Source: Patiria pectinifera
Taxonomy: Eukaryota > Echinodermata > Asteroidea > Valvatida > Asterinidae
Reading direction: 5' to 3'
Assembly: GCA_029964075.1 (NCBI GenBank)
Contig: CM057142.1
Coordinates: 38,070,392 to 38,134,391, forward strand
DNA length: 64,000 nt
Under the pieces are notes generated by a model. It was not told the DNA's origin. It worked only from the letters and a program-made list of their open reading frames with translations, and made no database searches. The position numbers were made by a program, and so were the translations under genes. Below are positions 46,711-63,285 of this stretch, one piece after another (the first letter of the stretch is position 1; the number at the start of each line of letters is the position of its first letter).

Positions 46711-47804
46711 ATGGCGACATCCAATGCACATTTCATTTTCGTCGGGACAAAGTTGTATTTTGTGGTCCTGATTTTGCTGTCGATGATTAGAGATTCATTT
46801 GCACATCCACAATGCCTTGACTTTTTCCCACCGTTTAGCTTCGACCAGGGCGATCAACCAGAATTCTGCACTCTGTACCAAGACTTCGGATGCTGCACCC
46901 TCGCAAAGGATCGGCAAATTAGGCAGACCTTTCAGACTATCGTCACGGAATATAATACCATGCATGGAAGCTTATCGAGCAATTGCAGTAATTTCCTGAG
47001 AGAAATCCTCTGTCAGGAGTGTTCACCTTACGCGGCTCATGTTTTCGATGGTGAGGACTCACCGGAGAATATAAGACAATTGCCCGGGCTTTGCAGCGAT
47101 TACTGCACCGAGTTTCATCGATATTGCGGCCAACTCGTCCCCTTCATCACCACGGAGGAGCTGGTGCGACAAGCCGCTGCCGACTCGGCTGTTGAGTTTT
47201 GTGATAGAATGGCCATAACAGACATGGATTACTGCTTTTCCGATGTCTTAACCGATGATGATCTCTCAAAGTGGGTGGGGGAGGCGCAGTCAGGGACCGG
47301 TCGCAGTCAGTGTCTGTGCCTCGAGGAATTCGCCGGCGGTCTACGCAATCCTATATTCGCCATCCATGCCGACGACAACACCCACCGATTGTTCATTGGA
47401 GAGCAGCTCGGAGTCATACATGTGTTTTTGGAGAATCGTACCAGACTGGAGACCCCTTTCTTGGACATCCGCGATTCAGTTACCGTAAACAAATTTAATG
47501 GAGACGAACGAGGTTTACTTGGCGCGGCCTTTCACCCAAACTTCACAGACAATTCCATATTCTATGTTTTTTACACGGCGGGCCCAAGGCTCAACAATAT
47601 ATTCATTCGAATTAGCGAATTCAAAGTTATGGCCAGTGACAAAAATAGAGCTGATGTCTCAACAGAAAGAGTTATCTTAGACGAGGACCAGCCATATGCC
47701 AACCACAATGGCGGTCAGTTACTGTTTGGGTTAGATGGCTACCTGTATGCAAGCCTTGGAGACGGAGGAGCAGGTGGTGATCCACACAATGTCGCACTCA
47801 ATAA
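46711..47804 (+). CDS. Copy C exon 1: signal peptide, folate-receptor-like domain, start of GSDH
   Basis: 1094 bp, phase 2 end (AATAA|GTAAGT). The hydrophobic core FVVLILLSM is followed by AHPQC at 31-35. Cysteines lie at about 35, 53, 61, 62, 92, 101, 104, 128, 132, 139, 164 and 175. GSDH motifs are [15 protein letters not shown] and [16 protein letters not shown]. The start is chosen as the first ATG of the signal peptide, conserved in copy A. Confidence 0.92.
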
Positions 47805-62800: not shown

Positions 62801-63285
62801 GCAAGAAGAGTTGAAAGGCCAGAGACAAACGCGCCCAGATATCATCATCAAAGATCCTTCGGTGTGGGTTTTGTAGACAGAGCTGCGACACGTCCCCCAT
62901 CTCAGGTAGGCAGAAAAGTCTATATTGGATATTTTGCATTCATCTTCAGGATGTTGTTGATATAGCACAGAGATGTACGCATTAGTTTGGTTCTTGTACG
63001 TTCACTGTTACTGAAATATAATAAGAAGACACCTCAATGTGTTATGGCTGCATGCTGAATGTAAATGTTCAACAAACTCTACCAAGATCAAAATGATCCT
63101 TTTTCGTGATATTTATCTGTAATGTTGTCTTCCCTTCACATTTTGGTCAAAAAATTTTTTACATGTACATTGTATATACAATGTGTAGCAGATTTTTCTT
63201 TTCTTTATTTCTTTTGAAGTATTGGGTTCCTAACCTGGAAAGGGAAAACTTTCGCTTGCCTTACGTTGTCCCCGACACACCAGTA
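46711..63285 (+). CDS. Copy C: transmembrane HHIP-like protein with mucin stalk, SEA and EGF domains (multi-exon span, 3' end off-window)
   Basis: The most complete copy: exon 1 through the tail exon are all present. Order: signal peptide (about 1-31), folate-receptor-like domain (about 32-190, twelve cysteines), GSDH propeller (from about 203 into exon 5), linker, six 47-48-residue stalk exons, a short Ser/Thr exon, three longer Ser/Thr exons, SEA, EGF, one transmembrane helix and a tail. Three stalk exons have lost the normal AG acceptor but could use an in-frame AG 15 nt downstream. No stop or frameshift was seen in the domain-coding exons. The tail exon ends in a donor, so the gene continues past the window. 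This would be a type I membrane protein presenting an HHIP-like head on a mucin stalk; ligand and function are unknown. Confidence 0.87.
48469..48797 (+). CDS. Copy C exon 2: GSDH core
   Basis: 329 bp, phase 2 to 1, with [14 protein letters not shown] and [12 protein letters not shown]; acceptor ACAAAG|G and donor CTAG|GTAATT. Confidence 0.92.
49082..49211 (+). CDS. Copy C exon 3: [12 protein letters not shown] segment
   Basis: 130 bp, phase 1 to 2; acceptor CTCTCCAG and donor GG|GTAAGAG. Confidence 0.92.
49269..49345 (-). mobile_element. tRNA-derived SINE head in intron 3 of copy C
   Basis: On the minus strand CCGTGGCCTAATGATTATT and GTGGGTTCGAATCC. Same insertion site as 14938-15025 in copy A, so it predates the duplication. 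Confidence 0.65.
49590..49732 (+). CDS. Copy C exon 4: GSDH C-terminal blades
   Basis: 143 bp, phase 2 to 1; acceptor TTTGTAG and donor AGAG|GTAAAG; encodes [10 protein letters not shown] and [11 protein letters not shown]. Confidence 0.9.
50278..50359 (+). CDS. Copy C exon 5: end of GSDH
   Basis: 82 bp, phase 1 to 2, encoding [18 protein letters not shown] and ILKIVDPGR; one codon shorter than A and B. Confidence 0.88.
50683..50745. repeat. CATGTACATGTA microsatellite
   Basis: Imperfect tandem tACATGTACATG words. Confidence 0.7.
50748..50957 (-). CDS. Short frame with a C2H2-like finger inside the Harbinger-like element
   Basis: A roughly 70-residue frame contains [19 protein letters not shown] followed by KKTEGHQ and a basic [11 protein letters not shown] tail, resembling a C2H2 finger with an AT-hook-like end, common in transposon-encoded proteins. 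Probably a relic of an element protein. Confidence 0.35.
   Translation of the reverse strand: MFFSATSRDRHNLVCHMSSTSYRKRQNHGHLCGFQNCNLSFPTAYQLGKHKKTEGHQCKRGRPTTSRRH
51147..51345 (+). mobile_element. CAGTGGCGTAGC MITE, left copy
   Basis: Ends CAGTGGCGTAGCCAC / TTGCTACGCCACTG, with G/C-rich interior including AAACCTTGTCGCCCC and GAGATTTTGAGTTTC. Left flank ACAGTACA. Confidence 0.82.
51346..53061. other. 1.7-kb segment carried between two MITEs
   Basis: The left part (51360-51560) is GC-rich and CpG-rich; the remainder is AT-rich. A small frame at 52646 (ATGGCGTCAGCGATA...) would encode a hydrophobic 29-residue peptide. No known gene recognised. The outer 8-bp duplication suggests it moved with the flanking MITEs. 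Confidence 0.5.
53062..53276 (+). mobile_element. CAGTGGCGTAGC MITE, right copy
   Basis: Same family and orientation as 51147-51345; ends CAGTGGCGTAGCCAC / CTGGCTACGCCACTG. Right flank ACAGTACA, identical to the left flank of the left copy. Confidence 0.82.
54328..54395 (+). CDS. Copy C exon 6: linker
   Basis: 68 bp, phase 2 to 1, encoding [18 protein letters not shown]...; acceptor CTTTTAG and donor AGCAG|GTAAG. Confidence 0.8.
54396..55683. other. Copy C intron 6
   Basis: No exon seen. It aligns with parts of the copy A intron (11100-11560) and, from 55371, with copy B 34437 onward. The TGACGTCA palindromes of copy A are mostly degenerate here (for example GATGAAGTCATCGG). Confidence 0.5.
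55684..57552 (+). CDS. Copy C stalk: six mucin-like exons
   Basis: Exons at 55684-55824, 56030-56170, 56376-56516, 56722-56862, 57068-57211 (144 bp) and 57412-57552; the others are 141 bp, all phase 1-1 and ending CTCAG|GTAAC or GTAGT. The second has acceptor CCGG in place of CCAG. The fourth and sixth have CCAC in place of CCAG and also a TAA in the first full codon. In each of these three an AG 15 nt inside (CGACAG|CTGA) would restore splicing in frame and drop the TAA. Encoded words are the same as in copy A, but the units are more diverged from one another. Confidence 0.82.
57700..58620. other. Copy C intron between stalk and short Ser/Thr exon
   Basis: AT-rich with no exon seen. Most of it is deleted in copy B, where 35880 joins sequence equivalent to about 58341. 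Confidence 0.5.
58623..58676 (+). CDS. Copy C short Ser/Thr exon
   Basis: 54 bp, phase 1-1, encoding [18 protein letters not shown]; acceptor TACCACAG and donor GGAG|GTAAATT. A decayed relative may lie near 58815-58880. Confidence 0.65.
58948..59115 (+). CDS. Copy C Ser/Thr exon, second type
   Basis: 168 bp, phase 1-1; acceptor CCTGCAG|G and donor GGAAG|GTAGC; encodes [14 protein letters not shown] and LQLNTEG. Confidence 0.8.
59359..59523 (+). CDS. Copy C Ser/Thr exon, third type
   Basis: 165 bp, phase 1-1; acceptor CCTCCAG and donor GAAG|GTAAC; encodes [19 protein letters not shown] and [10 protein letters not shown]. Confidence 0.8.
59780..59947 (+). CDS. Copy C Ser/Thr exon, fourth type
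   Basis: 168 bp, phase 1-1; acceptor ATGCAG|G and donor GGAAG|GTATTT; encodes [19 protein letters not shown]. Confidence 0.8.
60000..60535. other. Copy C intron before SEA
   Basis: Contains a dyad around 60060-60130 (CACCACGAAGTGA ... TCACTTCGTGGTG) shared with copy A at 2110-2170, and a 'gttggatccgcccct' repeat end near 60330 shared by all copies (1896 and 37790). Confidence 0.5.
60539..60654 (+). CDS. Copy C SEA domain, first exon
   Basis: 116 bp, phase 1 to 0; acceptor TTTGAAG and donor GGCG|GTAGGT. Confidence 0.82.
60975..61197 (+). CDS. Copy C SEA domain, second exon
   Basis: 223 bp, phase 0 to 1; encodes [18 protein letters not shown] with no stop; acceptor TTGCAG and donor GCAG|GTTCAT. 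Confidence 0.87.
61746..61835. repeat. 30-bp minisatellite, three units (copy C)
   Basis: Three tandem units matching 40731-40818. Confidence 0.85.
61892..61982 (+). CDS. Copy C EGF domain, first exon
   Basis: 91 bp, phase 1 to 2, encoding [16 protein letters not shown]; acceptor TGAACAG and donor GA|GTAAGT. Confidence 0.9.
62124..62164 (+). CDS. Copy C EGF domain, second exon
   Basis: 41 bp, phase 2 to 1, encoding [13 protein letters not shown]. Confidence 0.9.
62685..62905 (+). CDS. Copy C transmembrane exon
   Basis: 221 bp, phase 1 to 0; helix [19 protein letters not shown] followed by [10 protein letters not shown] and a tail rich in Arg/His; donor TCTCAG|GTAGGC. Confidence 0.9.
63220..63285 (+). 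CDS. Copy C cytoplasmic tail exon
   Basis: 66 bp, phase 0-0, encoding [20 protein letters not shown] and two more residues; donor CCAGTA|GTGAG. The stretch is conserved with copy B although short, which suggests constraint on the tail. Confidence 0.78.

Follow-up and report, generated by a model that had tools for sequence, protein, structure and literature searches.

Does a single gene of the sea star Patiria pectinifera place a head like that of the Hedgehog-interacting protein (HHIP) on a mucin stalk at the cell surface, and what would such a head bind? The question comes from a 64,000-nucleotide stretch of contig CM057142.1 (GCA_029964075.1, positions 38,070,392 to 38,134,391 of the forward strand), the window in what follows. 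The initial annotation, made from the letters of this DNA, had linked a signal peptide, a folate-receptor-like domain and a GSDH propeller to Ser/Thr repeats, SEA and EGF domains, one transmembrane (TM) helix and a tail at 46711-63285 (+), and had read the product as a tethered receptor or decoy of the Hedgehog-interacting type. We found the named parts in that order and with matching phases. The gene model has 22 joined exons and 1321 codons with no stop codon, AG at 21/21 acceptors and GT at 22/22 donors. The same exon series occurs three times in the window, as copy A (125-17604, -), copy B (24577-42267, +) and, downstream of B, the modeled copy C (+). The product of copy C is probably a type I membrane protein in which an HHIP-like (HHIPL)-type ectodomain stands on a stalk with a SEA-EGF-TM base.

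Domain searches, proposed with the annotation as a check, placed Folate_rec, GSDH, SEA and EGF above their Pfam cut-offs in both C and A. The query for C was its head and SEA-to-tail stretches, with the stalk left out. It gave GSDH at 118.6 bits (cut-off 25; residues 225-534), Folate_rec at 53.2 bits (cut-off 29.8; residues 48-175), SEA at 27.9 bits (cut-off 26.4) and EGF at 27.0 bits (cut-off 21.5). An SRCR domain was absent from the Pfam matches of these stretches. The hydropathy profile has a hydrophobic N-terminus and one strong TM helix (maximum 3.16).

Exon 1 (46711-47804) holds the start codon, the signal peptide, the cysteine-rich domain (CRD; about residues 31-190) and the first propeller blades (residues 200-364), as placed by Pfam and the exon model. 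The propeller continues through exon 2 (48469-48797), which contains Arg410-Asn411, and exon 3 (49082-49211), both placed in the same way. By the exon model and alignment with HHIP it runs on through exon 4 (49590-49732) and reaches its last strands in exon 5 (50278-50359). Exon 6 (54328-54395) joins the end of the HHIP-homologous region to the start of the stalk. Ten Ser/Thr-rich phase 1-1 exons follow, of which m1-m6 (55684-57552) are repeated with a period of about 346 bp and m7-m10 (58623-59947) are four more. The SEA domain occupies two exons by Pfam (60539-60654 and 60975-61197), and the EGF domain also has two (61892-61982 and 62124-62164; Pfam and EGF chains in the PDB). The TM helix and juxtamembrane tail, found by hydropathy, are at 62685-62905, and a tail exon is at 63220-63285. 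Exons 1 to 6 end in phases 2, 1, 2, 1, 2 and 1. For these exons and for those from SEA to tail, placement relied on homology, an open frame and splice sites. The choice of the ten stalk exons required phase 1-1, so that their agreement in phase is built in and only exons 1-6 and the SEA-to-tail exons give free phase evidence.

Four indirect tests bear on whether head and base belong to one transcript. Exon 6 is conserved and unites both parts: its PSEC aligns with the PEEC of HHIP (..DPKRPLMPEEC), the Ser/Thr residues of the stalk begin in it, and its end phase is 1, the start phase of every stalk exon. The alternative is a secreted HHIPL gene (exons 1 to 5 or 6) followed by a separate transmembrane mucin gene (stalk-SEA-EGF-TM). 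Such a division would fit the length of intron 5 (about 4.0 kb) and intron 6 (about 1.3 kb) in C and the intron 6 of about 3.0 kb in A, as well as the AATAAA/ATTAAA motifs, resembling poly-A signals, that lie between exon 5 and m1 (7 in C and 7 in A). It would also fit the read-through beyond exon 6, whose first 20 residues are alike in the three copies, in DNA as well as in protein, and a gene model drawn from genomic DNA. The read-through frames end differently in each copy, however, after 53 (C), 43 (B) and 21 (A) residues, so that the read-through form is not a conserved last exon. Intron 5 of A is just 0.96 kb, and the non-stalk exons of head and tail keep their order, relative strand, phase and splice sites in all three copies. 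A scan for signal-peptide exons with a phase-1 donor gave a single candidate, unshared, between exon 6 and SEA in C. We rejected this second-gene start (58541-58676), which has no counterpart in A or B and shares its donor with the weak stalk exon m7. The scan found no candidate between exons 5 and 6 of C and A or between exon 6 and SEA of A and B; it required a strong donor (5/6), so that a weak one would be missed, and the exon 5-6 interval of B was left out. Because the read-through ends differ and the stretches scanned showed no shared second signal-peptide exon, we infer that one transcript spans the head and the SEA-EGF-TM base. Two separate genes seem unlikely.

The mapped non-stalk exons of the other copies are well preserved. 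Acceptors are kept at 9/9 and donors at 10/10 in A, and both at 11/11 in B. The indels in these exons (9, 3 and 3 bases) are all multiples of three. Copy B lacks exon 1: its 24156-24442 matches 44296-44561 upstream of C, and from 24450 on it corresponds to intron 1 of C, which leaves B without about 3.8 kb of the sequence of C, exon 1 among it. A stop codon also interrupts its frame in SEA exon 2. Copy B is therefore probably a pseudogene, with intact copies next to it. These defects, together with one stalk unit of A that is seemingly frame-shifted and repeat arrays that differ in length among the copies, are what would be expected of an array of duplicates that is decaying or wrongly assembled and yields no working product. 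Against this stand the open frame of C over 1321 codons, that of A in all ten mapped non-stalk exons, and the divergence between A and C in head exons 1-6, where 51.3 replacements in 1432 sites against 35.7 silent changes in 401 (p 2.7e-5) indicate purifying selection. We also consider a haplotype artefact unlikely, since A and C lie on opposite strands and their silent divergence in the head is about 0.10. A decaying array is very improbable on this evidence. The homology of A and C begins about 41 bp before the start codon, so the sequence further upstream differs.

Constraint is not evenly spread over the head. In the CRD (codons 31-208), A and C differ by 1 replacement in 423 sites versus 10 silent changes in 111 (Fisher p 1e-6). 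In the propeller part of exon 1 (codons 209-364) they differ by 23.3 replacements in 354 sites versus 13.7 silent changes in 102. Both the replacement rate (p 1e-7) and the replacement-to-silent ratio (p 0.004) separate the two parts, a contrast drawn from the single pair, A-C, in which exon 1 exists. By these counts the CRD is under strong purifying selection in the A-C comparison, and the propeller part is the less constrained half of exon 1. For exons 2-6 the ratios are below 1 and not significant (A-C p 0.20, B-C p 0.09, A-B p 0.30). The SEA-EGF region is constrained in A-B (p 0.0096) and B-C (p 0.027), two comparisons that share the changes of B.

HHIPL proteins are defined by a folate-receptor-like domain plus GSDH. 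The head carries a signal peptide, Folate_rec and then GSDH, as seen by Pfam in C and A and by the hydrophobic N-terminus of C. Among solved structures it matches HHIP best (235.5 bits); the N-terminal domain of HHIP matches at 1.8e-5. The likeness to HHIP covers the CRD and propeller, with an alignment that extends to ..DP-R...P.EC, and an EGF domain lies downstream in both. HHIP has two EGF domains directly after the propeller, whereas in C the Ser/Thr stalk follows exon 6 and one EGF domain comes after stalk and SEA, together with a TM helix. A further difference is in blade 3. There HHIP has the stretch GDGMITLDDMEEMDGLSDFTGS, which we take to be its zinc loop, with Asp383 presumably the number of its zinc ligand. 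Copy C lacks a loop of this type: it shares 2/19 residues after the common GDG, places Leu363 opposite Asp383, and has a motif of prokaryotic sugar dehydrogenases instead. Judged by motif differences from HHIP alone, the head is HHIP-like, of the HHIPL type, and not HHIP. HHIPL1 and HHIPL2 likewise have a signal peptide and an HHIP-homologous region with a C-terminal addition beyond it. The addition is an SRCR domain in HHIPL1 (PMC6686954), whereas in C we found Ser/Thr exons, SEA, EGF, TM helix and tail.

The loop bears directly on a Hedgehog role. In HHIP, a loop inserted in propeller blade 3 binds Hedgehog and coordinates the zinc of the ligand (PMC8660895). A membrane-tethered receptor or decoy whose propeller binds Hedgehog in the manner of HHIP would agree with HHIP being the closest solved structure, and human HHIPL1 co-precipitates with SHH and raises signaling (PMC6686954). 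Thus, copy C may still bind Hedgehog by another mode. Human HHIPL1 is described as secreted, and HHIPL1-GFP was not seen at the cell surface (PMC6686954). The replaced loop with its Leu363 and the weaker constraint on the propeller argue against an HHIP-like mode of binding, as does what is described for the genes in other animals. HHIP proper is described as vertebrate-specific, two annelids have HHIP-like genes without HHIP, and beyond a single human cell system the same source describes no demonstrated part of HHIP-like genes in Hedgehog signaling (PMC9695228). The Hedgehog-decoy reading of copy C is therefore weak, and we regard it as improbable. Of the earlier proposal, the membrane-tethered, mucin-presented head of HHIP/HHIPL type stands, and the Hedgehog function is the part that we would give up. 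Folate itself is also an unlikely ligand of the CRD. Trp side chains line the folate pocket of folate receptors, and the stretch from residue 31 to residue 187 of C is free of Trp.

The propeller shares features with a family of enzymes. A search with the stretch GDVGQ..EEVNII.KGGNYGW of C, which in the alignment with HHIP lies between the two matched pieces, gave 6 PDB sequences, each of the sugar-dehydrogenase type and none HHIP. A genome-contig search with the head resulted in 32 prokaryotic GSDH loci, and a viral-contig search gave no relatives. Identity to the C propeller is 42-56% over matched segments in the 11 of 32 loci aligned. The loci were chosen by exact query peptide patterns, and conservation inside the pattern columns is meaningless. 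His332, Arg410 and Asn411 lie outside these patterns (His332 immediately after one), and each is found in 31/31 relatives, a locus with a partial match (L032) being omitted. The best segments of Asgard-type archaeal proteins are as close to the animal propeller as bacterial ones, with 46% identity in Hodarchaeota (L001), 49% in Jordarchaeum (L029) and 53% in Thorarchaeota (L032), the last over 79 residues only.

By motif, His332, Arg410 and Asn411 of C correspond to the catalytic His363 and to Arg430 and Asn431, which contact pyrroloquinoline quinone (PQQ), in the fungal enzyme CcPDH (PMC6881789). The HNGG of C aligns to 3a9g, and the His and the Arg-Asn are all present in C. HHIP keeps the His but has His-Asp in place of Arg-Asn, and a 2014 paper on CcPDH describes HHIP as retaining the putative catalytic His without several PQQ contacts (PMC4133262). 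The propeller therefore shares its family, catalytic His and Arg-Asn with PQQ sugar dehydrogenases (soluble glucose dehydrogenase (sGDH), Asd and fungal AA12), and differs from them in sitting within a multidomain animal membrane protein. A PQQ-type sugar dehydrogenase on display at the cell surface, active now or until recently, would account for the identity to prokaryotic relatives, the three residues kept in all of them, and the Arg-Asn that HHIP lacks. Other features speak against it. sGDH has further PQQ arginines in its late blades, for which we saw no equivalents by eye in C, and animals are not known to make PQQ. The propeller also gathers replacements between A and C, and its conserved residues may reflect just an ancient fold. 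We thus think this quinoprotein reading improbable. The fuller version places an HHIPL head of quinoprotein type, its core active site intact, and a folate-receptor-like CRD at the tip of a cell-surface mucin with an exon-amplified stalk and SEA-dependent release; it is equally doubtful. If true, it would be a switchable, tethered-or-shed class of morphogen, glycan or redox-acting receptors not known in vertebrates.

The stalk differs most among the copies. Counted by tblastn at E 1e-8, the main repeat has 21 units in A (9583-2807, -), 3 in B and 6 in C, each an exon plus intron, with spacings mostly of 239 and 341-348 bp. In A, the donor GT follows CAG in 21/21 units, and the acceptor AAG or CAG is at the usual place in 18/21 and not in the other 3. 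Two units of B have the usual sites and the third aligned only partly. In C, the model uses a shifted CAG acceptor for m2, m4 and m6; m7 is a weak exon, and the model omits a possible further one near 58825. Residues 602-1060 of C are 40% Ser+Thr. The stalk grows by whole-exon repeats, with its length set by exon number. In vertebrate mucins the repeats are mostly housed together in a single large exon, whereas each repeat of copy C is its own phase 1-1 exon.

Below the stalk, the base resembles that of transmembrane mucins with a SEA domain such as MUC1, with MUC3, MUC12, MUC13 and MUC17 as further members. The likeness extends from the Ser/Thr tandem repeats through a SEA domain just above its cut-off, EGF and TM helix to the short tail, and includes a Gly-Ser at the likely SEA cleavage place; the globular HHIPL-type N-terminal head is the difference. 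The putative cleavage loop, placed by eye, is SGSLLV in C (residues 1131-1136, SEA exon 2) and NGSLLV in A and B, so that the Gly-Ser is kept in all three. Known SEA autocleavage motifs include GSVVV and GSIVA, and cleaved SEA domains hold together until force parts them (PMC6954182). We infer that the SEA domain of copy C may be cleaved at its Gly-Ser.

Our best explanation, to which we give about an even chance, is a tethered and probably SEA-cleavable binding protein of the HHIPL type, with the CRD as its key part. The HHIPL-type ectodomain (CRD plus GSDH propeller) would sit at the tip of an O-glycosylated stalk fixed by the mucin-like SEA-EGF-TM base. Binding would occur mainly at the CRD rather than at the propeller face used by HHIP, and the ligand would be a small molecule of hydrophobic or glycan type or else a partner protein. 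SEA would cleave itself at Gly-Ser with the halves staying together, and pull, shear or a sheddase could then set head and stalk free in the form of a soluble HHIPL-type protein. Stalk length, which follows from how many exons were duplicated, may tune the reach. This mechanism of CRD binding and shedding is tentative, and we rate it at somewhat below an even chance.

Several points weigh against this reading, beginning with the genomic basis of the exon joining, the strict donor of the signal-peptide scan and the single pair behind the CRD contrast. SEA-EGF has 2 silent changes and 8 replacements in A-C, and TM-tail 1 and 8 in B-C, neither with a sign of constraint. The SEA match exceeds its cut-off by 1.5-2.1 bits (27.9 in C, 28.5 in A). 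The motif is GSLLV rather than GSVVV, and for the DSVLV of MUC16 cleavage was proposed but the cut was placed elsewhere (PMC4456727). Pro makes up just 7% of residues 602-1060. A stricter automatic pick of stalk exons, which includes a second repeat type but passes over units whose sites are weak, yields 15 exons for A (3 for B and 6 for C). The A unit at 7622-7481 (-) runs in two frames. Finally, the copies are recent duplicates, and their mutual agreement is not independent of ancestry.

Copy C combines known parts. Among the papers listed by searches of the open-licence PubMed Central library we did not find an HHIP-like head with a mucin stalk and SEA domain described, in line with the initial annotation, which knew of none; proteome databases may well hold predicted relatives. 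HHIP-like genes occur in several animal groups lacking HHIP (PMC9695228). A version on a mucin base would show that an HHIPL head can act as a cell-surface receptor, and copy C would offer a handle on the roles of HHIPL proteins before HHIP took on Hedgehog. The frozen CRD beside a drifting propeller suggests where the ligand should be sought, and the arrays of 3, 6 and 21 units are a natural series on the importance of stalk length.

Copy A has its head exons at 17604-16520, 15843-15515, 15200-15071, 14733-14591, 13662-13578 and 12617-12550 (-), its SEA exons at 1684-1569 and 1256-1034, and its EGF exons at 396-306 and 165-125. It runs off the window edge, beyond which the TM helix and tail would lie. 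Copy B comprises exons 2-6, its 3 repeat units, SEA, EGF, TM helix and tail. Its exon 6 is doubled (31239-31304 and 33564-33631) by a 2.3-kb tandem duplication, and the first of the two is frameshifted. The tail exon of C is either spliced at GTGAGT, with the next exon outside the window, or terminal. Read past GTGAGT it reaches TAA at 63325-63327, and B has a TAA at the same codon; the tail exon may thus be the last of the gene. An AATAAA lies at 42416 in B (region 42200-42450), about 100 bases past the tail-exon TAA. Candidates for a next exon after the tail of B, at 43979 and 44076, were not convincing.

Rfam (gathering thresholds) and tRNA scans gave no matches. A short tandem repeat of about 30 bases (gactcgagtccgtgtcctggactccagact) occupies 61740-61850, in the intron before EGF of copy C. 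Between the heads of A and B, a 668-residue frame at 19123-21493 (-) matches reverse transcriptase (RVT_1, 32.3 bits), and a match to GIY-YIG endonuclease (27.3 bits) comes after it in a different frame, presumably the make-up of a Penelope-like element.

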